From contig CAADGE010000009.1 in the NCBI GenBank assembly GCA_900696465.1, positions 1-61,524 on the forward strand: 61,524 nucleotides of DNA, in the 5' to 3' direction. Positions 1 through 54,852 of this stretch are shown here, in pieces; the stretch's first letter is position 1, and each line of letters opens with the position of its first letter. This stretch comes from an uncultured Planctomycetota bacterium (GTDB lineage: Bacteria > Planctomycetota > Phycisphaerae > UBA1845 > UTPLA1). The notes beneath the pieces were generated by a model. It saw nothing but the letters and a program-made list of their open reading frames with translations. It made no database searches and was not told the origin of the DNA. Both the position numbers and the translations under genes were made by a program.

Positions 1-47
1 CCTCGGATTCCTCGTCCCACGAACCACCCGCTCGTCGGCCTTGGTCC

Positions 48-719
48 ACTAGCATGGGACGGCGGCTCGCGAGCCGCGGATGCTCCTCAGCCCCCTCGAG
101 CGAGACCGCGCGAACCAACTTCAATGGGACCGCGGCTCGCGAGCCGCGGATGCTCAGCAATGAAGAACTCCGCGAGGCCCATCGCGAACTTCAATGGGAC
201 CGCGGCTCGCGAGCCGCGGATGCACCGATCGGCTGGAGCGCGTCGAGCAGCAGGTGATACTTCAATGGGACCGCGGCTCGCGAGCCGCGGATGCCGCGCA
301 GGATGGATGGGCGATCGATCGTCCTTGAAACTTCAATGGGACCGCGGCTCGCGAGCCGCGGATGCGCATCGAAGCCCAGGCGATCAGTGTGGCCCACTGC
401 ACTTCAATGGGACCGCGGCTCGCGAGCCGCGGATGCCGCAGTTGCAGCCCCACTCGCGGTTGGCGCGATTACTTCAATGGGACCGCGGCTCGCGAGCCGC
501 GGATGCATCATGATTACACTCCGTTGCAATCCACAATTAAACTTCAATGGGACCGCGGCTCGCGAGCCGCGGATGCGCGTAGAGCCGAACCCAGTCCGGC
601 CGCTCGCAGATGACTTCAATGGGACCGCGGCTCGCGAGCCGCGGATGCGGTGGAACGCGACGGCCACGTCCGTAGCGAATGGCACTTCAATGGGACCGCG
701 GCTCGCGAGCCGCGGATGC
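48..719 (-). CRISPR. Type I-G CRISPR array, 10 repeats and 9 spacers
   Basis: Ten 36-bp repeats lie at 48-83, 118-153, 188-223, 259-294, 330-365, 401-436, 471-506, 541-576, 613-648 and 684-719. The nine spacers are 34-36 bp long and all differ. Repeats two to ten are identical. Each contains a perfect 20-base palindrome, ccgcggctcgcgagccgcgg, which would form the crRNA hairpin. The first repeat (48-83) differs from the consensus at 51-53 and 61, as expected of the old trailer end. Read on the minus strand the repeat ends in TCCCATTGAAGT, matching the common ATTGAA-type 3' handle. The decayed repeat, this handle and the cas operon upstream on the same strand all say that the array is transcribed leftwards, with the leader at 720 and above. 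Confidence 0.97.
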
Positions 720-935
720 TGCCGCTACCGTAAACCGTGCTGGATAAGCTGGTTGCGATAGTGATTGCGAGCGAGAGGGAGTTACATGGTCGGGCGAGCG
801 TGGTTTACACCGCGAGTGTGGCACAAGTCTTGAATTGCCAAAGAGCTGCGACACGCGAGCGTGCCCGGCACCCCCCTGCACCACCGTCGCACTCGCTGCG
901 ATATTAGCAGGTAATGCCGTTGACATGGAAATCCT
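720..935 (-). promoter_or_regulatory. Probable CRISPR leader
   Basis: This 216-bp gap lies between the last intact repeat and the end of csb2. It has no supported gene. The neighbouring repeats are intact while the opposite array end is degenerate, so this side should carry the leader and the array promoter, read on the minus strand. An A/T-rich TAATAT on the minus strand near 902-907 could be a -10 element, but I see no convincing -35. The array might instead be co-transcribed from csb2. Confidence 0.6.
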
Positions 936-2705
936 CTATTCCTCTGTATCACGATGGAATGGCCAGAAAAGCCCCATACCAAAGTGACTCGACGAGCCTA
1001 ACAGAAGCGGCCCTTGAACTTCAAGGTCAAATTTGATGTGAAAGGATCCTGCAAGGCGATGACCACCGTCGTCGCCAGGCTTGCGACGGAAGCGCTTAAA
1101 CTGGATCGGACGCAAAGCCAATGCGGACCCCGGAAGGTTGATGCGGAATGCGCCGTGTTGATCTGTTTGCGGCGATATATCCACCTGATCTGCCGAGAGT
1201 TTACCGCGAAGGTCTTCGCGTTGATCGATCAATCGCTCGATCTCGCCGCGGAGATTCTCGACGAGCCAGCCTTGAGAATTGGAAAACACGCGGCGACGAA
1301 GCGGGTGCCCAGACTCGCGCGCGGTGGCCAGTTCCTCATCGGTACGAATGCTCCAGAAACGCGCGTCGTCGCGGCGCCCGCCGCGCTCCCGTGGATGTCG
1401 CGTGGCAAGATAAGGCGTGATGGATATCCACTCGCGTGACGGCCGCAAAGGACCAGGATGATAGTCACGGAGCGTGCCCATGCCGAGTAGCAACATTCGC
1501 AGCGGATGTCTCGCTTCGGCATCCCGGCCCGAGTTCAACTTGGACAGTCTGTCGAGCGCGCGACACTCATCGGGTCCGAACCCGTCACGGGCGAAGACCG
1601 TGAGGTGATCGAGACGGCCGTCGCCATCTTCGTCGGTGGGCAGATAGTAGGCGTGGGTGTGGCCGGAGAGCGGGTTACCATGCCCGTCTTTGCCGGAGAG
1701 GATGGCAGAGCGGCCGCGAACGCCGTTCCGCTGGGTTAAGCGGCCGTGAATGCTCATCAGCGCGCGGCGGGCGGCTTCGGCGACTGGGAGAGTCTCCGTC
1801 ACCAGCGGCAGGACGGTTGAGTCGAGAGCGTAGCGGGCAACCTGAATGCACCGGGGTGTGCTGCGTCCGCGCGGGCTGAAGCCCGCGGCTCGCTCACGCT
1901 TAGGTTCAATCTTGAAGCAGTCGCGCGGGCGGGCGTATTGGACCCAGCGCGAGCCGGGCGGGTCGGACCAGTGCTCCTTGTGCAGTTGAAGCGTCTCCAT
2001 GCAGAGGTTCCAGGCGGGGTCGTAGAGTGTGGTTCGCTGGTTGCTCGTCTGTCTCTTCCGGCCACGGCCGGTCGTTTCAGTGACGGTGGCAACATGGTCC
2101 TCGGCGAACGCGGACTTTGCGTCGGCGCAGAGCAGGCGGACGATCTCGTGGTCGTCTGGGACGTCGCGGCTGTTGAGCGGTGTGACGTGGCACCCCTCGG
2201 TCGTCGAGCCCGGCAAGATATCGGAGAAACCGCTCCCTGACGGTCGCAGCTCTGATTCGAGCAGCTCCGCCGCGCACCAGGACTCCGATCGACCGAGCGT
2301 GTTGAGGTTTGCCAGGATGCGGCTAAGCGTTTGGCGCTGCGTGTCGTCAAGCGAAGCGTTCGGCCAGCGGACCAGCAGCGCCGCCTCGCGCGAGACGGCG
2401 ACAAAAGTGTCAAACACCAACGTGCGATCATCCGGGCCTTTTTTGAACCACGGCATGTAGTGGCGCGTGTGGCCGGTGGAGGCCGGGGGCAGTACGAACT
2501 CGGGCGCCTCGGCCGCGAGAGTTTCGAGGATTGGCTTCACATCCGACTCCGGCACGTCCGGCTGCGTGCGTTTCCAGGTCGCGATCAGCGCGCGCAGAAT
2601 CCGCCACGGCGAAGGCGGCCACTCGACCGCGCCCTCGTTGACGTGCCGACCCCACGGCGTGGCGTGGTAGCGGCCGGCGAGGAATCGGAGCGAAATGGCG
2701 ATCAT
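936..2705 (-). CDS. csb2: Csb2, type I-G Cas5-Cas6 fusion (GSU0054 family)
   Basis: 589 residues. The family combines a Cas5-like backbone subunit with a Cas6-like crRNA endonuclease. The N-terminus shows the family signature around residues 7-38 (RFLAGRYHATPWG, then WPPSPWRILRALIA). The middle has a GHTHAYYLP stretch followed by an acidic DEDGDGRLDHLTVF segment, also typical of the family. The C-terminus has a glycine-rich GSSSHFGMGLFWP loop like that of Cas6 RAMP folds. It should bind and cut the palindromic repeat hairpin and cap the crRNA 5' end. Its ATG overlaps the csb1 stop in an ATGA, so the two are translationally coupled. It is the last cas gene before the array. No separate cas6 is present, in keeping with the fusion. 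Confidence 0.93.
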   Translation of the reverse strand: MIAISLRFLAGRYHATPWGRHVNEGAVEWPPSPWRILRALIATWKRTQPDVPESDVKPILETLAAEAPEFVLPPASTGHTRHYMPWFKKGPDDRTLVFDTFVAVSREAALLVRWPNASLDDTQRQTLSRILANLNTLGRSESWCAAELLESELRPSGSGFSDILPGSTTEGCHVTPLNSRDVPDDHEIVRLLCADAKSAFAEDHVATVTETTGRGRKRQTSNQRTTLYDPAWNLCMETLQLHKEHWSDPPGSRWVQYARPRDCFKIEPKRERAAGFSPRGRSTPRCIQVARYALDSTVLPLVTETLPVAEAARRALMSIHGRLTQRNGVRGRSAILSGKDGHGNPLSGHTHAYYLPTDEDGDGRLDHLTVFARDGFGPDECRALDRLSKLNSGRDAEARHPLRMLLLGMGTLRDYHPGPLRPSREWISITPYLATRHPRERGGRRDDARFWSIRTDEELATARESGHPLRRRVFSNSQGWLVENLRGEIERLIDQREDLRGKLSADQVDISPQTDQHGAFRINLPGSALALRPIQFKRFRRKPGDDGGHRLAGSFHIKFDLEVQGPLLLGSSSHFGMGLFWPFHRDTEE

Positions 2706-3790
2706 TGATCGTCGCCTTCCTCATCACCGTCGGCGCTGTCGTCGGCGTTCTCGTCCGCGTCTCCCTTACCCTTCCCGCCTTTGCCGCCCTTCTTCTTGCT
2801 CGGCTTCCACTCGACCTCGGTGATGGGCGGATCGGCGAAATGCGACTTGCACGCGCCGATCAGGTGCTTGCACTCGTTGAGCAGCACGTCCTCGGCGGGG
2901 ACCGTCCACCCGTCTAGCCGCATGACGTCCAGATCGCCGTCGAGTTCCAGGTCGCACGCGGTGCGCAGGCGCAGACCGGTGGAAAGGAACCGGCGAATCT
3001 TGAACAGCGACAGCGCGATCAGGAGCTTCGTGGCATCGTCGCCCAGACCGTAACCGCGGAGCAGTGCGAGATCGATATTAAAGTATGCCTTGATCGACTT
3101 GGCGACGAACTCGGTGCGATGGAAGGGGACGTTGCCTTCGCCACTCTTAAGGTCGGGCTGAACAATGTTGTTCTTGACGCCGCCGCTCTCCACTACGTCG
3201 ACGTCGCAGGCCTCGATGAAGCCAGACAGAGCCCGCGTCACACGCAATCGTCCTCCGATCTCTTCGAGAAAACACCCGTGAATGAGACTGTTGGGATCGT
3301 ACTTGAGCAACCCCGCGCGGAACTTCTTCCAATCGACGCGACCATCGTTCTGATAGCCGATCTCTGCGGCAAACTCCTTGTTGAATGCATTCTTGGTGAG
3401 TTCCCGCTTGCCGTCAGTCTTTGAGACGCGCCGCGCTTCCTTCATCACGTACTCGGAGTTAATCCGATGCGCCTCCAGAATCGAATTGCTCAGGTGTCCG
3501 TTGTTCGCGTCCGTGATTTTGATATATGGTAGGCCGCGCAGTTCAGCGATCAGATCCTCTGCTGCGGCGTCCCAGCACGCCAGTTCCATGCGGTTGGCCA
3601 CGGATTGGGCGGATTCGACCAGCAGCATTTCGGTGCCGTCCGGAAGCGTGTAGCGGGCCGGGCCGAGGTCGGCGAAGCCGGTGGACTGGAAGCGGCAGCC
3701 CTGGAGCGGCTTGAGCTTGGCTTCCATCAGCAACCGCGGGGTGTCCTTGAGCTTCTCGTAGTCGATGCCTGATGTTTTCGTTTCGCTCAT
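2702..3790 (-). CDS. csb1: Csb1, type I-G Cas7 backbone protein (GSU0053 family)
   Basis: 362 residues from the ATG at 3790. A longer in-frame start lies inside csx17 and is rejected, because the ATG at 3790 overlaps the csx17 stop as ATGA. In type I-G this family forms the Cas7-like filament along the crRNA. Family features visible are the N-terminal LEAKL/LQGCRFQSTGF-like region (here LMEAKLKPLQGCRFQSTGF), VESAQSVANRME near residue 60, and a long C-terminal half with a RRFLSTGLRLRTACDLE segment. The last 30 residues are a low-complexity Lys/Gly then Asp/Glu tail, probably disordered. It sits between csx17 and csb2, the canonical effector order. Confidence 0.93.
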   Translation of the reverse strand: MSETKTSGIDYEKLKDTPRLLMEAKLKPLQGCRFQSTGFADLGPARYTLPDGTEMLLVESAQSVANRMELACWDAAAEDLIAELRGLPYIKITDANNGHLSNSILEAHRINSEYVMKEARRVSKTDGKRELTKNAFNKEFAAEIGYQNDGRVDWKKFRAGLLKYDPNSLIHGCFLEEIGGRLRVTRALSGFIEACDVDVVESGGVKNNIVQPDLKSGEGNVPFHRTEFVAKSIKAYFNIDLALLRGYGLGDDATKLLIALSLFKIRRFLSTGLRLRTACDLELDGDLDVMRLDGWTVPAEDVLLNECKHLIGACKSHFADPPITEVEWKPSKKKGGKGGKGKGDADENADDSADGDEEGDDQ

Positions 3791-6096
3791 TCGGATTCTC
3801 CTTCCGCCGAGACGGCGAGTGCTCCGACTGCCGCGGACTCGCCGCGACAGACGAGTTGGACCAGATGGTTCACGGATTTCGATGAGATGGGGATGAGCAA
3901 CGCGGCCGCGAGGCGCTGGGCGCGGCGCGAGTCCATTGCCCCCTCGGACCAATTGTCGTCTCGCATCACGCCGGTGGGCAATGGGCCCGGCATCGGCGCC
4001 AATCCGGACACCCGGAGTCGCTGGGCGGCAATGCGGCACGCCTCGCCGACGCGCCCGGCGCGGAGCAAAGGCAGGATGCGCGGCTCGGGACGGATGGTCA
4101 GCCCGTTTTCCATGCGGCCGCCCTCAAGCCGGCGGGCAAGTCGCCACTTGACAGCTTCTCTCTCCCGCTCGGGTACGAGCGGTCGTGGCAGGAACACGAG
4201 TTTCAGGAGGGCGTATTCGCGCGGTAGCGGGTTGGGATCGGCTCGCTGATTGTCGCGGCTCTGCTTCATGCCGGCATGGGCGGGATGCCGGCGCCGGGGG
4301 TCGATCAGCATCAGGCCCCAGATCAATTGCTCGATGCGTTCGTCGTCGAGAACGGCGTTGATGAACGCGGCGATCGCATCGAGCGGTGCGGCATCGCGGG
4401 AGGCGAGCGGCAGACGTTCGCAGCCGGCGCGGGCGCCGTCCATCACGCGTCGCGCGAGGACGCTGACCAGATTGGTGGCCAAATCCGCAGCTTGCCAGAC
4501 GACCGAACGGTCCTTCTCCGCCCACGCCCGATAGCGCTTCCTCCAATCCGCGGTTTCGAGATTGGTCCTTAGTGGACCGATCCGGCCCTCGGCATCCTGG
4601 ACGTCGGCGATCCCCCGCGCGACGGTGAACTCATCCGTGCCGTCGCTGGCGGCGTCGAACCAGGCCGACGACAAGCCAACGAGCGGATTGAGTCTCTTTT
4701 CCTCGCGGAACCGCTCGGCGCTGGCCAGCTCACGCTCGGCTGCCCCCAGCGCGATGATGATCCGCTGGAAGAAGGTCTGGCCGCCGTACTTGCAGAAATC
4801 GAAGATCGCTGAGTCGATGCGGCGAAGGGCTGAACCAAACCGCGGCGGCGAGTTCTTGTCGCCGGCGGCCCGACGAAATCGCTCAAGCCACGGATCGACC
4901 TCCCGGAGAAGATCGACGCCGCTGCGCTCGACGACCTCAAACCGTCCCAGAGGCGCGGCCAGGAATGCTTTACCGCTGCGCTTAAGGAACCCGAGCCGGT
5001 TGAATCCTGTGATGCCGCGGTCAACGCCGAGCCCCGCCACAGCGCGGGCAAAGTCGGCGCCGTCCCGTGCCGCACGGCCGGAGATGTCTGCCCGACCCTC
5101 GCCGAACAATTGCCGGAGTTCGCTAGCGTTTGTCGGGCGGGTCCAGAGCGGCAACCACAGCTCGCCTCGTGACTCCGCTTCATCCTTGGAAGCAGGCGAA
5201 TCGAATCCGGCGGCGACAGTGCGGACCATGAACGGGAACGTGGCTCGCGACGAGTCCGGGAGGCCGAACCGTCGCACGGCGGCTCCTGCAAGCATCAGCG
5301 CGCCTTCAAGCATAAACACGAAGTCCCACGGATTGTCGCTCGAATCGCCTTCCATGCCCTGCGTGGCGTTTGGTCCGCCTGCGCGACCGGGCGCAAACTG
5401 GCCAACGCTGGCCGAGTTGAGCTTTGTTGGTGATGCAAATAATGCTTGGGCGAGCCATGCCCGCGATTGGTCGCTCGGCTGCTCATCCTTGTGCAAGCCG
5501 AGGGAGACGATCCGCTGCATGAAGTTCTGTGTGAAATCGAGACGCCCGTCGTTGCCGCCTGTGCCGAGCAGAGGGGCAAACCGCTGGCCGTCCTGCTGAA
5601 CAACCATCGCGGCGTCAATCCACGCGATCACGTCATCGGGCAGTTCGCGGCGGTAGCGACGGATCAGACGATCCTTGTCGTCGTCCTTCGGCTTATCGCC
5701 GACATTCTCCTCCCTGAGGGTTGCTTGCACGCTCGGGATCACCGTCTTGTAGAGGTCGGCGCGAGTCGATGTGCTCCCGGCCAACTCTTCTACCGCTTTC
5801 TTGTTGTCCTTCTCGAAGAATCCAGACCCCCCGGCCCATGGTGCCACGATCGGTGTCGGCTTGTATTTCTCCAGGAAGAACCTCACCAGCGCGTCGCGCT
5901 TCGCTTGGTCTGTCCCCGCGTCCCGAAACAGCTTCGGCGACCACAGCCAAAATACATCGTTTCTCCACCACCCCCGGGCCTCGGCATCCACTTGTTCGCT
6001 CACTAGGCGCAGGATGCCCAGGGCCTTCAGGTACGCCATCAGCGGTTCGGGGGTGCAGCCCGGCAGTTCAAGGTCGAAGCGCGGCGTTTCAGCCAT
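3787..6096 (-). CDS. csx17: Csx17, type I-G large subunit (Cas8 equivalent)
   Basis: 769 residues from the ATG at 6096, whose first codons overlap the cas3 stop by eight bases (ATGGCTGA). The longer open frame upstream adds 32 Arg/Pro-rich residues inside cas3 and is rejected. The N-terminus DLELPGCTPEPLMAYLKALG followed by ILRLVSEQ is the Csx17 signature. The next conserved block is a WW/FWLWSP region near residues 45-55, then APWAGGSGFFEKD. Csx17 marks subtype I-G (old I-U variant) and is taken to be the PAM-recognising large subunit of Cascade. I can see no nuclease motif. It ends in an ATGA overlap with csb1. Confidence 0.94.
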   Translation of the reverse strand: MAETPRFDLELPGCTPEPLMAYLKALGILRLVSEQVDAEARGWWRNDVFWLWSPKLFRDAGTDQAKRDALVRFFLEKYKPTPIVAPWAGGSGFFEKDNKKAVEELAGSTSTRADLYKTVIPSVQATLREENVGDKPKDDDKDRLIRRYRRELPDDVIAWIDAAMVVQQDGQRFAPLLGTGGNDGRLDFTQNFMQRIVSLGLHKDEQPSDQSRAWLAQALFASPTKLNSASVGQFAPGRAGGPNATQGMEGDSSDNPWDFVFMLEGALMLAGAAVRRFGLPDSSRATFPFMVRTVAAGFDSPASKDEAESRGELWLPLWTRPTNASELRQLFGEGRADISGRAARDGADFARAVAGLGVDRGITGFNRLGFLKRSGKAFLAAPLGRFEVVERSGVDLLREVDPWLERFRRAAGDKNSPPRFGSALRRIDSAIFDFCKYGGQTFFQRIIIALGAAERELASAERFREEKRLNPLVGLSSAWFDAASDGTDEFTVARGIADVQDAEGRIGPLRTNLETADWRKRYRAWAEKDRSVVWQAADLATNLVSVLARRVMDGARAGCERLPLASRDAAPLDAIAAFINAVLDDERIEQLIWGLMLIDPRRRHPAHAGMKQSRDNQRADPNPLPREYALLKLVFLPRPLVPEREREAVKWRLARRLEGGRMENGLTIRPEPRILPLLRAGRVGEACRIAAQRLRVSGLAPMPGPLPTGVMRDDNWSEGAMDSRRAQRLAAALLIPISSKSVNHLVQLVCRGESAAVGALAVSAEGESE

Positions 6097-8812
6097 TGGC
6101 TCCCTCCTTCCCGGACGCACCCGCGGACGACGAGATCGGCCCGGCGGCAGCCTGCTCCGCTGTCGCCGGCCGATCGGCCGCGATGCTGGCACGCATGTCC
6201 GCCGCGCGGAGGATCGCCTCCAGGTACGCCAGGCGGAATGGGCCCAGCGTATCGCGCAGGCGGATCATGCGCTCGGCCCACGACGGCTGACCCGCGAACG
6301 GCGGCTGCTCGCACAGGCCCATTTCCATCGGTTCCAGCGAAAAGGTCACGGCCGGTGCAGTGACGCCGTCGCCCAGGTCGGTCACGGGGAGCATGTCGCC
6401 GTCCCACACGCCGCGGGCGAAGCGCTTCTGCGGCGCTCGATTGCCGTTACCGTCGCGCGGACGAAGCTCATTCGGGAGCGAGCGGATCGACAAGCGCACT
6501 TTGCCATGATGGGCGGCTACGAGATATGCCACGAGGTTCAAATCTTCATCGGTCAGCAGCTTGAGGTGATCGTGTGGTCGCTGAAGCACCGCCAGCGCTG
6601 AGGCCAACTCATGCCGGAAGTGCCGGCGTTTGTAGCGCTTCCACTGACCTACTGCCTTGGCCCAGGCCATTTCTGCATCAGGGACATCGTCGGGTAATGC
6701 GGCCCGAAACACCTCATGGGCCTTGCCCCAGTCGTGCCAGCGTGCAGAGAGCCGTAACATCTCTGTCTCGGCGAGTTCCAGCACTGCAAGTATGGACTCA
6801 AGCTCCGTGCATACTTCGTTCGTGTGCTGAGCGATGGTTTGCCACACACCGACGCGAGAGAGAATATCAGCATCTGCTCCATCGAGAGTTTTCCGTTCTG
6901 AAGTGGGAAGCTCTATAGGTGTGACATGCCCCCCATTCGCTGGAGTCCATCCGATCTTCGCGGAGTATCCACCGGCGTCAGCATGAACCAAGTACACCTG
7001 GCCCGGCACAATCTTCGCCGCGTCAGCTTTCTCCCACGATTCGTCGAGGAAGTTCCATCGCCAGACTTGGCCTCTGTGCTGCTTCGTGAATTCGCGGAAG
7101 TCGGCGACCGGTGACGGGCAGAGTTCTTGTCGGCACGGCGCCGGTTCACTCACCGGAGGTGCTTCGTGGCCCTTGGGTCGATTCCATGCGCGCCAGAACA
7201 CGCGCACATCTGAATCTTCAATCTCGCGGACGAAGCGGTCGATGTCGATGTCGTTGCCGGCTAGGTCCGGCGTTGTGTCGAACAGGTCGATCAGGTCTCG
7301 CTGGCGAATGACGTGCGTATGCTCGTACGGAAACAGCGCCGCCTGGTCTTCATCGCTTAACTTCTCTCTATGCGCTGCCAGAGAGCCGAGGCCGACGTCG
7401 TTCAGCTTCGCCAACTGTGCCGCGGCGCCGCGAAGATCGTTGAGCCCGTACGGAAGGCGCAGCTTCTCCGCGTCCTGATCCTTCACAGGCAGATCGATCC
7501 ACTTCACGCAGGCATGCTCGTTCTGCTCGCCGCGCCGATTGCACCGCCCGAATCGCTGTACCAGCGACGCCCACGGCGCCAGTTCAGTGAACAACGTGGT
7601 CGCATCGACATCGACGCCCGCCTCAATCACCTGCGTGCTGACAACAATTGTTCCCTTCCCTGAAGGTTCGGCGAGCGCAGCCTCGACCGCCGTGGCGCGG
7701 TCTGTCGGCCTGAATCGGGAGTGCAGCAAGACGTACTCGGGCTGGTCATCGGATGACGCGCCCGCCGATTCCTGCGGCGCAGCTTTCTTCCGGCTCGTGC
7801 CTCTGGTCTTGCCAGCATTCGCCAGGTTCATCAACGCGTCGAACAGCTCACATGCCCGCCGCACGGAGTTCACAACCACGATCGTCCGCGTGCCGGGCCG
7901 ATGTGCGTCCACAATCTCCTTCGCCAGGCCCTCAGCGTAACCTATTGCCGACTCGGCTTTCTTGAGCGGCTTCGACGCGTTCCAGCGCTGCTTAACTTGC
8001 TCGTCCTTGTGATCCTCAGCGATCAACGAGAGTTGCGCCAGACCGTCCACGCGATCCTTGAAGTCTACGGTCTCGAGCCAGTTCGGGTGCATCGTCGCGG
8101 ACATCCACACGCTGTGGCATCCGTGGCCGTTCATCGCTTGGGGTGATTCAATGGTAGGTAGACACCGACGAAACGCCTCCAACTGCGCCGTCGTTGCCAA
8201 GCCGCTGCCCATGAGCTGGATTTCATCGAATACCCACAGGCAGTCAGTGTGCAGCAGACCGAACTGCATCGGCCAGCGCGAGCGACTCGCCGCGTAGCCA
8301 CGATTGAGCGCCCGCGACAAGAGCATGTCCTGCGTGCCGATGATGATCGCTTCGCGCTCCGGGTGGGTGTCCCAATCGTCCTCCTCCTCGCCGCCCATAA
8401 GCACGTACACCGCGACTTTGTCGGGTTCGAAAGCGCTCGACGCGTACGTCGCAACGCGGTGGTTCAGCGTCGCTGACTCGCCAGCGCTCGGCGGCAGATC
8501 GAACGTCACATCACCGCCCAAGCGGCCCAGGTTGTGCAGCCATCGAATGGCGTTGTCCCGCGTCTGCTCCACGAGAACCCGCATGGGTAGGCAGTACACC
8601 AGCCGGCGCGGCGTCTGGCGGCGAACCTCATCGCCCGCCCCGAACCGGCGCCACAGCCAGCCGAGTATGGCCATTGCTGTCTTGCCCAATCCGGTGGGCA
8701 CGGTCACGAGTGACTGTAGCTTGTCTTTGAACTCGCATTGAAACGGAAACGGCGCAGCCCCACTTGTCGCGCTCTTGAAGAAATCTCTGAATGACTGTTC
8801 GGCGCGGCCCAC
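6089..8812 (-). CDS. cas3: Cas3 helicase with C-terminal HD nuclease
   Basis: 907 residues. The helicase comes first: Walker A TVPTGLGKTA near residues 37-46, motif II VFDEIQLMG with D196-E197, motif III SAT at 238-240, and motif VI QRFGRCNRRGE. The HD nuclease domain is at the C-terminus: H693-D694 in ARWHDWGKAHEVF, a following RHELASAL, the H-H pair near 768-769 in AAHHGK, and a RAAD near 872. This helicase-then-HD order is the reverse of the usual Cas3 and is the known arrangement in type I-G. The protein should unwind and degrade target DNA after Cascade binding. Eight bases overlap csx17. A 115-bp gap separates it from cas2 upstream. Confidence 0.95.
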   Translation of the reverse strand: MGRAEQSFRDFFKSATSGAAPFPFQCEFKDKLQSLVTVPTGLGKTAMAILGWLWRRFGAGDEVRRQTPRRLVYCLPMRVLVEQTRDNAIRWLHNLGRLGGDVTFDLPPSAGESATLNHRVATYASSAFEPDKVAVYVLMGGEEEDDWDTHPEREAIIIGTQDMLLSRALNRGYAASRSRWPMQFGLLHTDCLWVFDEIQLMGSGLATTAQLEAFRRCLPTIESPQAMNGHGCHSVWMSATMHPNWLETVDFKDRVDGLAQLSLIAEDHKDEQVKQRWNASKPLKKAESAIGYAEGLAKEIVDAHRPGTRTIVVVNSVRRACELFDALMNLANAGKTRGTSRKKAAPQESAGASSDDQPEYVLLHSRFRPTDRATAVEAALAEPSGKGTIVVSTQVIEAGVDVDATTLFTELAPWASLVQRFGRCNRRGEQNEHACVKWIDLPVKDQDAEKLRLPYGLNDLRGAAAQLAKLNDVGLGSLAAHREKLSDEDQAALFPYEHTHVIRQRDLIDLFDTTPDLAGNDIDIDRFVREIEDSDVRVFWRAWNRPKGHEAPPVSEPAPCRQELCPSPVADFREFTKQHRGQVWRWNFLDESWEKADAAKIVPGQVYLVHADAGGYSAKIGWTPANGGHVTPIELPTSERKTLDGADADILSRVGVWQTIAQHTNEVCTELESILAVLELAETEMLRLSARWHDWGKAHEVFRAALPDDVPDAEMAWAKAVGQWKRYKRRHFRHELASALAVLQRPHDHLKLLTDEDLNLVAYLVAAHHGKVRLSIRSLPNELRPRDGNGNRAPQKRFARGVWDGDMLPVTDLGDGVTAPAVTFSLEPMEMGLCEQPPFAGQPSWAERMIRLRDTLGPFRLAYLEAILRAADMRASIAADRPATAEQAAAGPISSSAGASGKEGANG

Positions 8813-8927
8813 GCTTCTCTCCCGGAAGTCTCCGGAACGTGATGAATCGCTCGGAAGCGATAGTCTAACGTGGCCTAACGATCCGCAAAAGAGTTTCGAG
8901 AAACCTGTGAAATCAGGAATAGAGCGG

Positions 8928-9218
8928 TCAAATGACCACGACTCCGCACTCTTGTTCCGGCAGCGACGAGCCTAGAACCGTTGCCGACTCGCGGGCGGTC
9001 TCCTCATTGGCGCCTAAGTCCACGATTAACACCTGATCCACCTTGAGGTTGACGACCTCACGGAGTGCATTCTCCAATCGGACGCGATCGATGGGCTTGA
9101 GCGTGCAGTAGAAAACCGAGTATTGCCACGCTTCGCCGTAGGCCTTCATCAGCTTGTGCGTTCGGCGGAGGCGCTTAGGGTCGCGGATGTCGTAGCAGAC
9201 GAGATAGCAGCGGCGCAT
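8928..9218 (-). CDS. cas2: Cas2, spacer integration subunit
   Basis: 96 residues from the ATG at 9218. An upstream in-frame start adds 12 atypical residues. The N-terminus MRRCYLVCYDIRDPKRLRRT has the Cas2 ferredoxin-fold first strand and the conserved Asp of the YDI motif. WQYSVFYCTL forms the second strand region and QVLIVDLG the fourth. Cas2 forms the dimeric core that bridges two Cas1 dimers during integration. It lies 43 bp after cas4-cas1 and 115 bp before cas3 in the same operon. Confidence 0.95.
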   Translation of the reverse strand: MRRCYLVCYDIRDPKRLRRTHKLMKAYGEAWQYSVFYCTLKPIDRVRLENALREVVNLKVDQVLIVDLGANEETARESATVLGSSLPEQECGVVVI

Positions 9219-9261
9219 CTTGAAGGCTCCTTGCCGGCGAAACGCCGGCACCACCTGACCT

Positions 9262-11103
9262 TCATCGAGTCGTTAGGAAGGCCAGGGTCGGCACCTCGCC
9301 GAGCAGCCAGGCGGCGATCAGCCGCGCGTGCAGCATGATCATCCGGCGGTAGCTCAGGCGGTACTCGAAGACCGGATGCGTCACCTCCGTGTCCATCCGC
9401 CGGCCGTAGGCTGAGAAGAACGCTTTGCGGCCGGCATCGGTCAGTGCACAGCCCGCGTCGGTGTTGAGGAAGTGCCCCTCGACGAGTTCCGCACGATTGA
9501 ACCCCGATACGGCGACCGAATCTGCGATCAGCGGTCGGAACGGTTCCATCAAGTCCAATGCCATCGCCGGGCGGCCGGGGCGCGTGGCGTGAAGCGCCGC
9601 AAGCGTTGGTTCCAGACTCGCCAATCGGCAGGCCGCGGTGCACTCGTGCGTGAGCATCGAGTATGCGAACGACAGGACGGCGTTGATCGGATCGGGCGGC
9701 GGCCGCCGCTGACGACCGTTTGCGTCGAACCGGGCGGCGATCTCCTTCACGCCCTCCTTGAACATCCCCGCGAAATGTCGGAAGTAGATGGCAGCCGCGT
9801 TGCCTTCATGGCCGCGAAGCTCGTCCAACGTGGCGGCGCGTTCGGCGGAAGCGACGCAATCCTGAAGGTCGGCCGCTGCCCGTGACGGCAGGCCGGAGTG
9901 GTTTCGCATCAGGAGCGTGCGCTGATTGGCGATCTTCGCTACGGTGACGGCGCGGGCGAGTTCCAGCGATTTTTCTGGTCGATCCAGCACCCGGACCTGC
10001 GCAGCGCGGACGGCGGCGCTGGTTGGGCCCAACGGGTCCATTATGGCGGTCAGTCTGCCAGCGGCCGTGAGGAAGGCGACTGGCACCTCCTGCTCCGCGA
10101 AGATAGCCAGCGCCTGCGTGGAGATCTGCACGCCGCCCACGACCGCAAGCGACTCAACGTTTGCGAGCGGTAGTTCCTTGACCACGTCGCCGTCCTTGTC
10201 GGTGATCCGCACGGACTGGCCACGCACACCGACGCGGACGCCCTGGCGTTGGAGCACGACGTGGATGCCGTCATCACGCGGGGGCCAGAGTTTGCGGGGC
10301 GTGAGCTGTTCATCGACCGGCTGGCCGGCCACGGTCATCGCTGTGAATCGCTGGTGGTTGACCTCGTCGGGCAGGCAGATCGGTTGAAGCGAGCAACGCG
10401 GGCAGCGCGGATCGTTGACCAGCGGCGGCGGCCGCGGCCCGACTGCGTCGCGCTTAGCGGCTTCGAGTTCGGCCAGCGCATCGCTTCGCAGAACGTCATC
10501 GACCGACACGCGCAGCCGAAGTCGCTCCGCCGAATAATACAAGTACGCTTCAGGTACGATGTACCCGGCCTCCTCCAGGAGCAGCACCTGGAGGCCGAGT
10601 TGCACCCGATCCGTCGGCCAGGGCTCAGGGCCAAGGAGCAGAGGCAGTTGTTCCATTAACTCGTCGACAGCCCCGGCGACTTGGCTGCCGCCGCTTCGGC
10701 ACGGCCGCCCCTTGCGGTATTCGACCGGAACCGCGACGTTACCATTGATCTCGGCGAGGTCGAGCGTCGCGGTCAGTCCCAGCCGCCGGCTCGTGAGCGC
10801 CAAACTCCGAACAGAGCGTGGACGGTTGGAGTCGCTGTCGCTTTCTTCCAGTTTCTCGATTGTCTCGCGCTCCCTTGGGCGTTCCCGTGCGGCTGGTTCT
10901 GCGGACGCGGCGCTTGGCCGGTCGACGCGCCGATGGATCCCCTTGCCTTGTTCGGTATCGGCACTGGGCGCAAAGATACCTTCCACCGTCATGTAATAGA
11001 AGAGCCGAGGACAATAGGCGTGCTCGGCGACCCCGCGAGCTGGCCAAAGTTCCTGATCCACTAAGGGTTCATCGGTCCAGGCCGTCGAGTTGGTAACCTC
11101 CAT
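9262..11103 (-). CDS. cas4-cas1: Cas4-Cas1 fusion adaptation protein
   Basis: 613 residues. Residues 1 to about 250 are a Cas4 nuclease: Cys31 in AYCPRLFYY and Cys234, Cys237, Cys243 in CPRCSLQPIC are the iron-sulphur ligands. Asp115, the E128/K131 pair in VPVEYRKG and the Gln region near 168 form the RecB-like site. Residues from about 270 are Cas1: E433 in GHEGNAAA, H505 in ALHATRPGR, and D517/E520 in ALDLMEPFRP are the metal ligands. Cas4-Cas1 fusions are typical of type I-G and, in Geobacter, select PAM-bearing prespacers. The ATG has no clear ribosome site, so a GTG at codon 15 is a possible alternative. It is the first gene of the cas operon. Confidence 0.96.
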   Translation of the reverse strand: MEVTNSTAWTDEPLVDQELWPARGVAEHAYCPRLFYYMTVEGIFAPSADTEQGKGIHRRVDRPSAASAEPAARERPRERETIEKLEESDSDSNRPRSVRSLALTSRRLGLTATLDLAEINGNVAVPVEYRKGRPCRSGGSQVAGAVDELMEQLPLLLGPEPWPTDRVQLGLQVLLLEEAGYIVPEAYLYYSAERLRLRVSVDDVLRSDALAELEAAKRDAVGPRPPPLVNDPRCPRCSLQPICLPDEVNHQRFTAMTVAGQPVDEQLTPRKLWPPRDDGIHVVLQRQGVRVGVRGQSVRITDKDGDVVKELPLANVESLAVVGGVQISTQALAIFAEQEVPVAFLTAAGRLTAIMDPLGPTSAAVRAAQVRVLDRPEKSLELARAVTVAKIANQRTLLMRNHSGLPSRAAADLQDCVASAERAATLDELRGHEGNAAAIYFRHFAGMFKEGVKEIAARFDANGRQRRPPPDPINAVLSFAYSMLTHECTAACRLASLEPTLAALHATRPGRPAMALDLMEPFRPLIADSVAVSGFNRAELVEGHFLNTDAGCALTDAGRKAFFSAYGRRMDTEVTHPVFEYRLSYRRMIMLHARLIAAWLLGEVPTLAFLTTR

Positions 11104-48273: not shown

Positions 48274-48795
48274 TTATCGTCCGGCAGTTGTGTTCACGGC
48301 CATCACAGGACCGCGGAAGGACGCATGGCAGGAATTGCAGGTGGTGAAAATCTCATCGACCTTTCGTGAAATCTGATCGACTTTCTTCCGTCGCGCCAAT
48401 GCGGCCAGCTCGCTGCACTCTCGCGCCAGTCGAAGGGCGAGATCGTCATAGACGCGCCGGCTTTCCTCGCTCCATTCCGTCTCACGGAAGAGCCGTGGAA
48501 TCAGTCGGGCGTCCTCCGCCAGCGCCGCGGCGTGAACGGCCACATCGGCCAGTTGTTCGTCAAGCTTCCGCTGATCGGCCTGCCGGGCGAGTTGATCAAA
48601 GTCAATTGCGCGCAGCTCATGCATGATGAGTCGAAGATGCTCATTGCGCACGACGTGCAGCCCATGTGCGTCGTCGGCGTCGGATGCGGCGCCTTCCGTA
48701 CCGGCGGGCTGCTGGCATGCAGGGTTCGTGAGGCAGACTGAGGCAAGCGCGAGAGACAAGACGGTGATGGTTGTTCGGTACACTTTGCGAAGCAT
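48274..48795 (-). CDS. Secreted monohaem c-type cytochrome, C-terminal CxxCH
   Basis: 173 residues. An N-terminal signal (TVLSLALASVCLTNPA) is followed by a helical domain rich in Arg, Glu and Ala. The haem motif CNSCH lies about 18 residues from the end (EIFTTCNSCHASFRG). A C-terminal CxxCH after four helices is the cytochrome c'/c-556 plan. It could carry electrons or bind small ligands in the periplasm. It is convergent with the dehydrogenase gene (25 bp apart). Confidence 0.85.
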   Translation of the reverse strand: MLRKVYRTTITVLSLALASVCLTNPACQQPAGTEGAASDADDAHGLHVVRNEHLRLIMHELRAIDFDQLARQADQRKLDEQLADVAVHAAALAEDARLIPRLFRETEWSEESRRVYDDLALRLARECSELAALARRKKVDQISRKVDEIFTTCNSCHASFRGPVMAVNTTAGR

Positions 48796-48915: not shown

Positions 48916-49344
48916 ATGATGTCCATGGAACATGATCCGATTGCCTTCCGGCAGGCCCTGGTTCGCGGCTGGCGTCGGCGCTGTCCGAGATGCGGCGAGG
49001 GTCCGCTTTTCGGGCGATGGAATCATCTTCGGGAGTGCTGCCCGATCTGTGGTCTGGAGTACGAACCGCTGGAAGGCAATTCGTGGTGGTTCATGTATTA
49101 CTCGACCGCAATGTTGACCGGCGTCATCGTGATTCTCATGTTTCTCATTCGACCTGCGAACCTCTGGCTGGGTCGGCTTGTCGTCTTTGCGACCGCGCTG
49201 GTGCTCATTGTGCTGAGTCTGCCCTATCGCAAAGGCATTGCATTGGCGATCGATTATCTCTCGGAACATCGTTGTTCCAAAATGCACAAAGCCGACACCG
49301 AAGGGTCCTCGCGCTGCGAGGGCGAGCAGGATTCGCGCCAGTGA
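48916..49344 (+). CDS. DUF983 family membrane protein
   Basis: 142 residues, or 139 from the third Met codon. RGWRRRCPRCGEGPLFGRW and ECCPICGLEYEPLEGNSWWF form the two CxxC pairs and connecting block typical of DUF983. Two membrane helices follow (MYYSTAMLTGVIVILMFLI and LGRLVVFATALVLIVLSLP). The function of the family is unknown. It is divergent from the cytochrome gene across 120 bp. Confidence 0.92.
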   Translation: MMSMEHDPIAFRQALVRGWRRRCPRCGEGPLFGRWNHLRECCPICGLEYEPLEGNSWWFMYYSTAMLTGVIVILMFLIRPANLWLGRLVVFATALVLIVLSLPYRKGIALAIDYLSEHRCSKMHKADTEGSSRCEGEQDSRQ

Positions 49345-49529
49345 TGTCTCGATGCCGACGGGATGACAGTTCGTTCGCGCTCACTCTTGAAACAGATCAT
49401 CTCTTGAATTAGTCCTGCCCCTTGGGGTATCTTGGTACGTGTTCGGTCAGAAGCACCTGAAAACTCAGTCTCGTGCGCCGTCCGGAATCGCGGCGTGCGA
49501 CTCACATCGCCAATTAAGAAAGGGCACAC

Positions 49530-51356
49530 ATGCGCCAGTTCTTACTTGCAGCAACCGTCTCAGGTCTTGTAGGGTTCTGGTATCAGCCGGCAGTGGCCGC
49601 TTCCCCCTGCGCGCCAGGTACCTGGAGCCCGACAGGCGAGCAGCCCTGTTATCCCTGCCCGGCGGGTTCGTACTCCGGTTACCCCGGTGCACGAAAGTGT
49701 CTGCCATGCAGCCCCGGTACGTTTAGCAGCCAGGAAGGGATGTCATCCTGCCAGTCGTGTCCCGCCGGAAGCTACTCGGATCAATACGGGAGTGCCGAGT
49801 GCGACCCGTGTCCGTCAGGTACCTACAACGATGAAATCGGCCGCACCGATTGCGATCCCTGCGCGCCGGGTCACTATGCGTCCGGGTTGGGTAGCACATC
49901 CTGTCAACCATGCAATCCCGGTCAGTATGCGCCATGCTCGGGAAGCGCCGTGTGTCAATACTGCCCGGCGGGATCATACACATCCACGAGCGGCAGCTTG
50001 GTGTGTACACCCTGCGCAAGCGGAACTTTCGCGCCGAATATCGGCTCCATCTATTGTACGCCCTGTCTTCCGGGCAGCTTCGGCCCCATCGAAGGCCTCT
50101 CGGAGTGTTTTCCGTGCAGGCCCGGTGAGTATACGAACGCGCCTGGACGACAGGAGTGCGATCTATGTAATCCGGGGACTTACTCAAGCGCGGAGGGAGC
50201 CATCGATTGTACGCCGTGTTCCGCCGGCCTGTTTGCACCATTGGGAGGCATGGCAAGCTGCATTCCGTGCACGCCGGGTGAGTATACATCCAGCTCGGGC
50301 AGCACTTTCTGCACTGCCTGCGGCGAAGGCACCTACGCTCCCGTCGGTGGAAGCATCACTTGCTCAAGCTGTCCGCCGGGCAGTTACGCGCCGACAGTCG
50401 GAAACAGAGAATGCGCGCAGTGTCGACCGGGTACCTACGCTTCGGCGAGTGGTAGCACGGCCTGTCTACGCTGCCCGGCCGGCAGCATTGCCTCCATGCC
50501 GGGAGCGACCGCATGCACACCCTGCCCGGCAGGTTTTCATTCCAACGCTACACAAATTTCGTGCGAGCCCTGCCCTCCTGGAACGTCTACAGGGAACGTG
50601 ACGAGCAGTTTTTGTGAACCCTGTGCGCCGGGATTCTTCGCATCCGATCCGGCAACCGTTCTTTGTTCTCCCTGTCCTCCGGGAACTTTCGCAGCCGGTG
50701 GGGGCAATGTTTCGTGCGAGACTTGTCCACCGGGTACGATCGCTTCCTCGCATGGGGCATCTGAATGCGTCCCTTGTGCGGCGGGTACGATACCGAATGC
50801 GGCGCGGACAGATTGCGTACCATGTCCTGCGGGAACCTATTCGCCGATCATCGGCGGTCAGATTTGCCTGTCATGCCCGCCGGGAAGTTTCACGAACTTC
50901 TCAGGTGCGCAGTCCTGTACAGCATGTCCGGCAGGCACCATCTCAAGCCCTACGCTGACATCCTGCCTGAATTGTCCGGCTGGTACCTTCTCCCGGCCCG
51001 GCAGTTCGGTCTGCCAGAACTGCAACTGCGATGATTGCAATTCATGTACGAATGATTCCTGTGAAGTAACGACAGGTGCGTGCAGCAACACGCCGATCTT
51101 AGGATGCATCGCCTGCTGTCTGCCGACCGGCGAGTGTGCCTACCTGTCGGACAAAGAATGCACCGACCGCGGCGGCATTCCGCAGCCGGCGAGTACGCTG
51201 TGCGAGTTTGCAGAATGTGAGACGGTCTGTCCCTGCCCCGGCGACATGAACGGAGACAATGTTCTGGATGCGCTGGACATCCAGGAATTCGTCGATCTGC
51301 TGCTCAGCAAAGACATCAAGCTCTGCGATGCCTTGCGTTCAGCGGTCAGCAGATAG
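49530..51356 (+). CDS. Secreted cysteine-rich GCC2/GCC3-repeat protein with dockerin-like tail
   Basis: 608 residues. A signal peptide covers about 1-23 (LLAATVSGLVGFWYQPAVAA). Residues 27 to about 500 are about 28 tandem units of 16-17 residues, each of the form C-x2-C-x-P/A-G-(T/S)-(Y/F) (for example CPAGSYSDQYGSAECDPC). This is the ephrin-receptor-like GCC2/GCC3 repeat best known from eukaryotes. Another Cys-rich block follows (NCNCDDCNSCTNDSCE), then GDMNGDNVLDALDIQEFVDL, a dockerin-like calcium loop. The pairing of cysteines suggests a rigid disulphide rod on the cell surface or in the periplasm. No catalytic domain is visible. RBS GAAAGG lies upstream. Confidence 0.9.
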   Translation: MRQFLLAATVSGLVGFWYQPAVAASPCAPGTWSPTGEQPCYPCPAGSYSGYPGARKCLPCSPGTFSSQEGMSSCQSCPAGSYSDQYGSAECDPCPSGTYNDEIGRTDCDPCAPGHYASGLGSTSCQPCNPGQYAPCSGSAVCQYCPAGSYTSTSGSLVCTPCASGTFAPNIGSIYCTPCLPGSFGPIEGLSECFPCRPGEYTNAPGRQECDLCNPGTYSSAEGAIDCTPCSAGLFAPLGGMASCIPCTPGEYTSSSGSTFCTACGEGTYAPVGGSITCSSCPPGSYAPTVGNRECAQCRPGTYASASGSTACLRCPAGSIASMPGATACTPCPAGFHSNATQISCEPCPPGTSTGNVTSSFCEPCAPGFFASDPATVLCSPCPPGTFAAGGGNVSCETCPPGTIASSHGASECVPCAAGTIPNAARTDCVPCPAGTYSPIIGGQICLSCPPGSFTNFSGAQSCTACPAGTISSPTLTSCLNCPAGTFSRPGSSVCQNCNCDDCNSCTNDSCEVTTGACSNTPILGCIACCLPTGECAYLSDKECTDRGGIPQPASTLCEFAECETVCPCPGDMNGDNVLDALDIQEFVDLLLSKDIKLCDALRSAVSR

Positions 51357-51415
51357 CGACAAGCGATGCTGCTGCCCCAGGCGTTCTCGACCCTTCTACT
51401 GCGATGAGCCGCGTC

Positions 51416-52168
51416 TCACGGCTTGGGCGGATTGAAATCCGGCTGCTCCATCACGGTCACGCCCGGCGGGGCTTTGAATTCGAACCGATCGTCGCTGATG
51501 TCGGAATTGATTTTGACGTTCGTGAGCACCGAGGTCGAGATGACCTTGCCGTTGGGGTCGTAGTTGACACCGCGGATCGAGAGGCCGGTTTCCTTGTCGT
51601 AGTAGGAAAGTGATCGCCCCATGATGTTCGTGGGGTCGACACCTTCCTTGGGCTTGGTCTCCAGCACCCAGGCGGACTTGCCGTCCACCGTTTCATCCGG
51701 CAGTAGTTTGATCTCGAAGCTCTCGGCCAGCAGCTTGAAGCTCAGAAGCGCGTTGAACGGGTTCGGCTCGTTTTCCGGGTTGACCTTCCGCCGCGTGGCC
51801 ATCTGCTGGCCCATGCGCTCGACGAGGTTATGCCAGTGCTTGCCGTCGGAGACGTCGGTGGACTTCGTGTCGTAGGACTGCTCCTGATCACCCATCTTCT
51901 GGGAAGTGCTGCTCGTCGTTTCGATTCGTGCCAGCACCCGGTCGTCCTTGCGGGCGAACTGCGCCACCTGACGCGTCGTGGACTTGATCGTAACCTGCTG
52001 CATGGTCATCTCGGTCTTGAGATCGAGCGTGTACTCGAGACTCTTCATCGTCGAGACTTTCGTATGAATCTTCTTCTGGACATCTTCGAGGGTCTCGGCG
52101 CGGGCCGCGGAAGCGGCGAAGGCGCAAACAAAGCATGCGACGATGAGCAGGGGCCTGGCAGAATACAT
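51416..52168 (-). CDS. Secreted LolA-like outer-membrane lipoprotein carrier-type protein
   Basis: 250 residues with a signal peptide ending near AASAARAE. The remainder resembles the LolA/LolB-like half-barrel and planctomycete DUF1571-type proteins: SLEYTLDLKTEMTMQQVTIK and FARKDDRVLARIETTS are early strands, SAWVLETKPKEG, LSYYDKETGLSIRGVNYD and DDRFEFKAPPGVTV later ones. Such folds bind lipids or lipoproteins. The partner is unknown, although a LolD/LolCE-like exporter is encoded 20 kb away. It is convergent with the cysteine-rich protein gene. Confidence 0.75.
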   Translation of the reverse strand: MYSARPLLIVACFVCAFAASAARAETLEDVQKKIHTKVSTMKSLEYTLDLKTEMTMQQVTIKSTTRQVAQFARKDDRVLARIETTSSTSQKMGDQEQSYDTKSTDVSDGKHWHNLVERMGQQMATRRKVNPENEPNPFNALLSFKLLAESFEIKLLPDETVDGKSAWVLETKPKEGVDPTNIMGRSLSYYDKETGLSIRGVNYDPNGKVISTSVLTNVKINSDISDDRFEFKAPPGVTVMEQPDFNPPKP

Positions 52169-53480: not shown

Positions 53481-53880
53481 GCCGGGATTATAACGGGCCG
53501 CGTCAGAACCTGTCTCACGGGGAGATTAGCCCCGGGTATTACGGCGCGCGAAAATTGGTCCATAACAGCGTCGCAATCAAAATGGACCGCTCCAAATCTC
53601 TGCATATGTGGGCAATACTGTCGACCATGGCTTCGCCATTCCGATCGATTCGGAACCGGTGATCGGGACGATCCCCCTTGACATCGGGCTCAAACATCGG
53701 ATAAGTTGCATCCGCTTGAGTCCAACTTGGAAGGACTGGAGTCATGAGTCATGCTCGACGTGATTGCGTCGGGAACACCCTCTTACGAAATAACTCTCCC
53801 GTGTCCCTCCCCGTTTGGATGTGCGCGCATTCGGGGTGCAAAGTGGGAAACTGGCGCGCAATCAGGTAAGGAAAGGAAGT
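53481..53880. other. Intergenic region between rRNA methyltransferase and PEP-CTERM genes
   Basis: 400 bp between divergent genes. It carries the candidate plus-strand promoter at 53678-53707 and the AGGAAAGGA ribosome site of the gene at 53881. No further gene is supported; short frames here have no recognisable features. Confidence 0.6.
53678..53707 (+). promoter_or_regulatory. Candidate promoter of the PEP-CTERM gene
   Basis: A perfect TTGACA at 53678-53683 is followed 18 bp later by TAAGTT at 53702-53707 (or ATAAGT one base earlier with 17 bp). The transcript would have a leader of about 170 bases before the ATG at 53881. Confidence 0.45.
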
Positions 53881-54852
53881 ATGTTCAAGAAGTTAGTCAT
53901 CGCGATGACGCTGCTCTGTACACCGGTGGTGGCGATGGCCGGTATCGGAGACCCCAATGACATCTACGCCATGAGCGACGCTCACAGTGAGTTGTATCAG
54001 TTTGAACGGAATCCGCCGTTCAATTATGTGCCAGGCAACTACACAGGGGCCCTGGGCGGCACCTATGCTAATGTGTTTTCCAACAGTACCGAGCTGTCGA
54101 GCAACTTCCCCTATCTCGGGGCGGTTGCCGGGACTGCGCAGAACTTCTTCATCGGCGGGTTTACCTCGCTGATCGAGATCGATTCCCTGACCGGCGCCGC
54201 GGTCCAGACCATCGCGGGCGGCACCCGCCTCGGTCCTGCCCGGGCGCCGAACGACAACATTGTCGTGGGCGGTCCGACTGGCGTGGAAGAGTACGATTCG
54301 AACACCGGTGCCTTTGTCCGCACCGTGGTCGGCGTGGGCGACGGCGGTAACCTGCACACCTTCAACGGCGGTGAGATGTACGTCGCCAACTGGTTCCAGG
54401 GGTCGGGTTTCGGCATCAAGCGCTACAACTTCGTCACGGGCCTTTCGAGCGGTCCGGACATTGCCGTTCCTTTTGCTCCGCAGGAGATCGGCTTTGGTCC
54501 CGATGGCGCCCTGTACGCGACGGCCCTCTACGAGGGACCGGGCATCGAAGGCCTCTGGCGTTACAATGCGGGCTCGGGCACCTGGTCGCAGTTCATTGAC
54601 GTGCAGTCGTTGCCCGGTGGCGGACCGCACGGTTTTACTTACGATCCCGTGACGTTTGATTGCTTCATGGCGTTCAACACCGGCGAGATTTATCGCTTTG
54701 ATGGCTTCACCGGCGCCTACATCGATCAGCCGGCTTACGTGCCGACGAAGCTGACGGACATCCTCTTCAAGACGGTGATTCCGGAGCCGACGACGGCCGC
54801 TTTGATGATGCTCGGTTTAGCCGGCCTGATTTCGCGACGACGATCGCGATAA
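53881..54852 (+). CDS. PEP-CTERM sorting domain protein with beta-propeller-like body
   Basis: 323 residues from the ATG at 53881, preceded by AGGAAAGGA. An upstream in-frame start adds 22 residues. Signal peptide KLVIAMTLLCTPVVAMA. The middle has repeated blocks resembling propeller blades (GVEEYDSNTGAFVRTVVG, EIGFGPDGALYATALY, GIEGLWRYNAGSGTW), as in NHL- or SMP-30-like proteins. The C-terminus VIPEPTTAALMMLGLAGLIS, then RRRSR, is a PEP-CTERM signal. It is expected at the cell surface. A strong terminator lies 36 bp after the stop. Confidence 0.93.
   Translation: MFKKLVIAMTLLCTPVVAMAGIGDPNDIYAMSDAHSELYQFERNPPFNYVPGNYTGALGGTYANVFSNSTELSSNFPYLGAVAGTAQNFFIGGFTSLIEIDSLTGAAVQTIAGGTRLGPARAPNDNIVVGGPTGVEEYDSNTGAFVRTVVGVGDGGNLHTFNGGEMYVANWFQGSGFGIKRYNFVTGLSSGPDIAVPFAPQEIGFGPDGALYATALYEGPGIEGLWRYNAGSGTWSQFIDVQSLPGGGPHGFTYDPVTFDCFMAFNTGEIYRFDGFTGAYIDQPAYVPTKLTDILFKTVIPEPTTAALMMLGLAGLISRRRSR

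Follow-up and report, generated by a model that had tools for sequence, protein, structure and literature searches.

The window, by which we mean the whole 61,524-nucleotide stretch analyzed, constitutes contig C9; the genome, that of an uncultured Planctomycetota bacterium, measures 4.14 Mb. The window carries a gene encoding a 608-residue cysteine-rich protein, here called the rod protein, the frame of which is intact and open throughout (Table 1). A record of the uncultured planctomycete isolate PLA5 is identical to the window for 13,824 bases in the region of the gene and thus does not represent an independent strain. A first-pass annotation had described the product as a GCC2/GCC3 disulphide rod of about 28 two-cysteine units, preceded by a signal peptide and followed by a dockerin-like end. 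The signal peptide was recognized again when the translation was read by eye. No passenger domain lies ahead of the rod in the window protein, the protein gave no IPTL-CTERM sorting motif match at E values up to 1, and no sigma-70-like site was found on the forward strand within positions 49250-51600.

Table 1. The rod gene, the parts of its product and the two flanking genes (window positions).
Feature	Position	Strand	Basis
DUF983 gene, left flank	48916..49344	+	Pfam; adjoins LolA-like gene in same-genus genome G001
SD-like AAGAAAGG	six bases 5' of the rod-gene ATG	+	read directly from the sequence
Rod gene, 608 aa	49530..51356	+	ORF, translation, Pfam PF07699 match
Putative signal peptide, residues 1-23, ending AVA	49530..49598	+	by-eye reading of translation
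First unit (N-cap), 16 aa, residues 27-42	49608..49655	+	alignment, unit counts
Units 2-28, residues 43-497	49656..51020	+	unit counts, Pfam PF07699
Cysteine cap, Dicty_CTDC-like, residues 498-523	51021..51098	+	PF00526
Second cysteine block, residues 524-566	51099..51227	+	alignment; G016 has a similar block
Putative half-dockerin tail, one calcium-type loop, residues 567-594	51228..51311	+	Dockerin_1 profile, tail model
LolA-like exported protein, right flank	51416..52168	-	21.6 bits, under Pfam cut-off of 30

The array consists of exactly 28 uninterrupted units spanning residues 27-497 (the first 16-residue unit, C27-C40, included), of which 23 are 17 residues long and five are 16 residues long. 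Both framework cysteines are present in 28/28 units. This regularity is far above chance: the protein contains 31 CxxC motifs and 29 C-x10-14-CxxC motifs, whereas 10,000 residue shuffles gave means of 8.6 and 4.6 and maxima of 20 and 17, respectively. The Pfam Ephrin_rec_like profile (PF07699, GCC2/GCC3) matched 15 stretches with a total of 220.4 bits (E 1.5e-66, cut-off 23.1), so the unit count and family first assigned to the protein were borne out; membership is consistent in score, in regular cysteine spacing and, in the predicted model, in the fold of the units. All 12 PF07699 matches in the genome fall inside the rod-gene frame. Since the array opens with Cys27, which has no earlier partner, we infer that the disulphide lies within the unit and joins Cys 1 to Cys 15. 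The total of 73 cysteines is odd, and unit 7 carries an extra cysteine at position 9. Across 12 proteins with 134 units in total, such an extra cysteine occurred in four units, each time (4/4) at position 9.

Structure prediction, which the first-pass annotation had proposed as a check, gave models consistent with a rod. An AlphaFold2 model of the rod (five rows) had a mean pLDDT of 70.9; blocks averaged 77-95 between residues 31 and 330, and confidence was low across residues 450-524 and in the tail. The model is built of repeated units with two short strands each. In a second model (residues 415-608, three rows) the block means were 76-89 for the last units and 63-65 for the cap, and the tail was poor. 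The rod model is best matched by the cysteine-rich domain of Mst1, the mastigoneme protein of Chlamydomonas: the top Foldseek hits were seven mastigoneme rows (5e-28), followed by ELAPOR1 and then by TNF-receptor-type domains. VIA-align superposed the model on 9b4h_A with a Z score of 15.4 (341 residues aligned, rmsd 6.3) and on 8wa2_F with a Z score of 15.2 (rmsd 10.6); the cysteine-rich parts of the calcium-sensing receptor gave Z scores of about 8 over 54 residues, middling by the standards of the tool. Mst1 was also the best solved match by sequence (phmmer, 6e-45, a score that includes a large composition-bias term). According to the available part of PMC11015965, the mastigoneme cysteine-rich domain is 26 nm long and contains 26 disulphides. 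As 26 disulphides occupy 26 nm there, 28 units would span about 28 nm, and by this scaling the length of the rod may be put very roughly at 25-30 nm.

Downstream of the array, the cysteine cap matched Dicty_CTDC (PF00526) with 27.2 bits in the whole protein and 30.4 bits when the tail alone was searched (cut-off 27). Type I dockerins are defined by two calcium-binding loops. The tail of the rod protein has one loop and scored 13.1-13.9 bits against Dockerin_1 (PF00404), below the cut-off of 22.9, matching profile positions 1-23 of 57. On these grounds a canonical dockerin was rejected, and the C-terminal end is, from its sequence, better called a half-dockerin tail; of the dockerin-like end first described, the resemblance of one loop to the start of Dockerin_1 stood and the rest did not. 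The genome is rich in dockerin-like loops, with 77 Dockerin_1 matches at E values of 1 or less, some 40 of which exceed the cut-off. A three-row model of the rod tail, which includes, besides the window protein's own tail, a tail from another protein encoded in this genome, gave 105 matches there at E values up to 0.05. Among the best 30 of these 105, 23 lay at most 75 residues from a stop codon, three lay farther upstream, and for four the fetched locus contained no stop. Most of the 23 near-stop tails have two loops, or one plus a degenerate one, and three, the rod tail included, were single-loop tails by eye.

The cohesin-like partner for which the first-pass annotation had recommended a search did not emerge: PF00963 gave no match at E 0.001 in the genome, which is 96.8% complete and in which remote cohesins, or cohesins in the missing sequence, are possible. 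The genome thus has many dockerin-like C-terminal tails, yet no detectable cohesin. Cohesin matches were found in 5 of the 17 genomes of the family, three of them over the cut-off, and none of the five bears a rod; the same-genus genome G002 has two such matches, one over the cut-off. The other two rod bearers of the family, G014 and G016, gave none.

The units of the array have diverged strongly. The mean identity between 17-residue units is 39% in amino acids and 46% in DNA, and at third codon positions it is 32%, compared with about 27% expected from composition. Third positions thus retain hardly more identity than background, so the array is old. TRF detected no tandem repeat in the DNA of the gene, and direct-repeat families at unit-period distances have copies of 62-80% identity. 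Recent tandem expansion was therefore rejected. The growth by tandem duplication originally suggested is a fair guess for the origin of the array, but such growth must be old. No clear higher-order period was found in the window protein (lag means 0.36-0.45). When the best match of each unit was sought across 12 proteins, 25.8 of 116 units found it within their own protein, against a mean of 13.1 and a maximum of 26.2 in 200 label shuffles. The within-protein excess is only suggestive, as the observed value does not surpass all shuffles; it is carried by G014 (11.5/18 units) and G405 (7/19), and the window protein contributed 4/23.

Selection was seen in two relatives, G023 and G043, this pair being measured instead of the window gene. 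The NG86 method gave a dN of 0.145 and a dS of 1.91, the latter near saturation, and YN00 gave a dN of 0.168 and a dS of 0.880. All 35 of 35 cysteines are shared by the pair; the conservation of unit cysteines in homologues, which the first-pass annotation had made a test of its reading, thus held. The unit in the same place was the best match for 8 of 9 G023 units, and reciprocally for 7 of 9, indicating that unit number and order have been stable in this pair, as units best match their same-place partners.

Members of the rod family are rare and come almost exclusively from one order, in agreement with the rarity noted at the outset. In counts that include the window's own genome each time, PF07699 matches were found in 5 of 61 relatives, 3 of 17 genomes of the family and 13 of 114 genomes of the order. 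In a draw from the class 15 of 397 genomes matched, 12 of these within the order and the other three weakly, and in a draw from the phylum the sole match among 294 genomes was the window's own; none of 14 control genomes matched. The class-draw matches G425, G446 and G507 were taken as noise because G446 and G507 fall below the PF07699 cut-off, G425 lies just above it with a stop inside the frame, and the frames are short (33-78 residues). Both same-genus genomes, G001 and G002, lack the rod gene.

Of the 13 matching genomes of the order, 11 provided the 12 arrays that we counted, with 28 (window), 22, 19, 10 (four arrays), 8, 5 and 4 (three arrays) units; the matches in G377 (masked letters) and G389 (a fragment) were excluded. 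The 16-residue first unit, C.PG.[FWV]S..G..PC, opens 12/12 arrays. Note that this count holds partly by construction, since the arrays were located with that pattern, which was derived from the initial arrays and extended by one letter (V) so as to cover two more. By pattern, the array is followed by a similar cysteine cap in the window's own genome, G405, G385 and both proteins of G401 (G401a/b). G016 has a variant cap (24.1 bits, under the cut-off), as do G377 and G389 by eye, and G014, G388 and the four proteins with 10 units showed no cap. Ahead of the array, beta-helix domains scored over the Pfam cut-off in G388 and G401a/b, and Chlam_PMP repeats were found in G385. Loci L083 (G385) and L085 (G388) thus encode PMP-repeat or beta-helix proteins bearing the rod cassette, and in G401 (locus L088) two beta-helix rod-cassette proteins lie side by side.

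The ends of these proteins also differ. G401a/b match IPTL-CTERM in Pfam with 22.9 and 21.4 bits (cut-off 20.8) and in NCBIfam with 18.0 and 15.4 bits, under the cut-off of 20.5. WGL-type tails, alike by eye, were found in G385, G377 and G389. G023, G043, G404 and G406 have a MopE-type metal motif over the cut-off and a D.D.D-type motif at the end. Because the cassette is found between different fronts and different ends, we infer that it looks like an interchangeable spacer, and retention would fall to the tail. Homologues with these bacterial-type fronts and tails occur in two families of the order. Since the cassette spans both families, it is unlikely that this strain acquired it recently and on its own.

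The chromosomal setting was compared with four fetched loci (G001, G002, G010 and G014), and synteny was found only in G001, which keeps the order SacDH, cytochrome c', DUF983, LolA-like and RlmL. The distance from the DUF983 stop to the end of the LolA-like frame is 73 bases in G001 versus 2,071 in the window, where the rod gene lies inside; G001 has additional space of its own between the LolA-like gene and RlmL. The syntenic locus of G001 thus lacks the rod gene, which would reflect either a gain in the window or a loss in G001. The cytochrome c'-like protein (PF01322), also syntenic in G001, is encoded at 48274-48795 on the reverse strand, and a PEP-CTERM protein is encoded near the rod gene at 53815-54852 on the forward strand. 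The rod gene has a GC content of 0.604 and a GC3 of 0.62 versus 0.66-0.83 in eight neighbours, a composition that is slightly low and not clearly foreign.

No conserved operon was seen, as none of the 18 window genes besides the rod gene matched homologue loci L037-L040 at E 1e-4. In Pfam, nine neighbouring ORFs of L037, L038 and L039 encoded common enzymes, a GreA-type factor or a type II/IV secretion ATPase, or gave nothing. A mobile-element origin was rejected: positions 49250-51500 contain no inverted repeats of at least 18, no plasmid or phage match to the rod was found at E 1e-5, and of 26 stretches of viral contigs that fit the pattern 0 were confirmed as rod relatives. At the end of the contig lies a CRISPR array with 10 copies of a palindromic repeat at a spacing of 70-72 (window 46-726 and 936-11103, with the cas set). 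PADLOC assigned the adjoining cas set best to type I-G (I-U), with Cas5/6, Cas7, Cas8g, Cas3g and a Cas4-Cas1 fusion.

To our knowledge, and in keeping with PMC6993872, long GCC2/GCC3 runs are known mainly from eukaryotes, and a search of the open-licence literature found no description of this rod family. Mst1 (PDB 8tx1, 8wa2 and 9b4h) shares with the rod protein a long, disulphide-rich, extracellular run of Ephrin_rec_like type, but its spacing is less regular (677 residues for 26 disulphides) than that of the bacterial rod with its half-dockerin end. In Mst1 there are, in addition, nine Ig-like domains and a helix rich in hydroxyproline, as described in the available text of PMC11015965, whereas the rod protein gave no Ig match in Pfam and its sequence has no polyproline stretch. 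Eph receptors and ELAPOR1 (PF07699) resemble the rod protein in unit sequence and cysteine spacing, the predicted model also matches Eph cysteine-rich parts, and ELAPOR1 is among the PDB matches. Unlike Eph receptors, the rod protein is 28 uninterrupted units, and the Pfam scan gave neither ephrin-binding nor kinase domains. An Ephrin_rec_like protein was reported in the actinobacterium Ilumatobacter coccineum and interpreted as a horizontal transfer, the domain being described as emerging in ancient eukaryotes (PMC6993872, from the part available). That protein, likened here by its description, belongs to the same domain family but is actinobacterial and has an HYR domain. The nearest architectures are those of the beta-helix relatives (G401a/b, G385 and G388), which have the first unit and the units in common with the window protein and, in G401a/b and G385, a similar cap. 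They differ in having a long front domain and only 4-5 units, and G401a/b end in IPTL-CTERM whereas the window rod ends in the half-dockerin. The rod protein is therefore neither an Eph receptor, nor a full mastigoneme protein, nor a strict dockerin protein.

We propose that the protein is a secreted, disulphide-clamped rod, most likely a stalk or spacer on the outer cell surface, a reading that we regard as moderately probable because relatives bear shorter rods in surface-type proteins. The signal peptide supported by the sequence would export the protein, and its cysteines would be oxidised outside the cytoplasm. Extracytoplasmic disulphide formation is plausible, as the genome has two VKOR-family matches over the cut-off. 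The units would then fold one by one and stack into a stiff rod, the regular folding being supported by both sequence and model, and the half-dockerin tail, or binding by the rod itself, would hold it at or near the surface. The relatives with sorting tails likewise point to a surface location. Against the reading speak the lack of a passenger domain for the rod to hold out and of a sorting motif in the protein itself, the poorly modelled cap and tail, and the marginal IPTL-CTERM scores of the relatives.

The rod could instead be a filament subunit, pairing through its cysteine-rich faces and polymerising into a surface hair like Mst1. No other solved structure matches nearly as well as Mst1, which forms an antiparallel dimer via its cysteine-rich domain (PMC11015965, in the part available), and the odd cysteine count together with the extra cysteine of unit 7 fits such pairing. 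Against this stand the lack of an Ig match or an Mst1-like polyproline stretch, the fact that a common fold does not imply a common assembly, and the 4-5-unit homologues behind beta-helix domains, which resemble stalks; we consider a filament subunit unlikely. A broader proposal is that the order has an exchangeable capped rod cassette of its own, with 4 to 28 units, the number of which determines how far surface proteins reach, and that the long rods standing alone (28, 22 and 19 units) align laterally to build mastigoneme-like hairs; it seems to us rather speculative and a little less likely still. Docking of the tail onto a scaffold, in a planctosome-like cohesin-dockerin complex of the kind proposed for planctomycetes (PMC6461901, from the text available), would account for a tail that resembles dockerin loop 1 in a genome with numerous dockerin-like tails, and the cohesin matches of G002 are in line with it. 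The single sub-threshold loop, the failure to find cohesin in the window's own genome, G014 or G016, and the lack of rods in the cohesin-matching genomes of the family make docking quite improbable.

A recent uptake of the gene from a eukaryote, with a use in attaching to eukaryotic surfaces or mimicking them, would agree with the ancient eukaryotic origin of the domain and the Ilumatobacter transfer as given in the available part of PMC6993872, and with the rod-less syntenic site of G001. It is hard to reconcile with homologues in two families bearing bacterial-type fronts and tails or with a composition near that of the neighbouring genes, and we think it very doubtful. The idea that the gene is decaying or unexpressed draws on its patchy distribution and on the lack of a promoter-like site on the forward strand. 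An intact 608-residue frame, an SD-like site, framework cysteines in 28/28 units and the selection seen in the pair of relatives render it highly improbable.

A surface stalk or spacer thus remains our preferred reading. Our results show that the rod family is an order-level family with its own architecture, whereas the earlier report, in its available part, concerned one actinobacterium (PMC6993872). Attention is also drawn to the half-dockerin, a tail type that may take part in export or in retention. With a fixed first unit and 4 to 28 units in different species, the rods form a natural series in which unit number can be set against rod length and stiffness, and this series lets one ask whether bacterial hairs follow the algal building principle.
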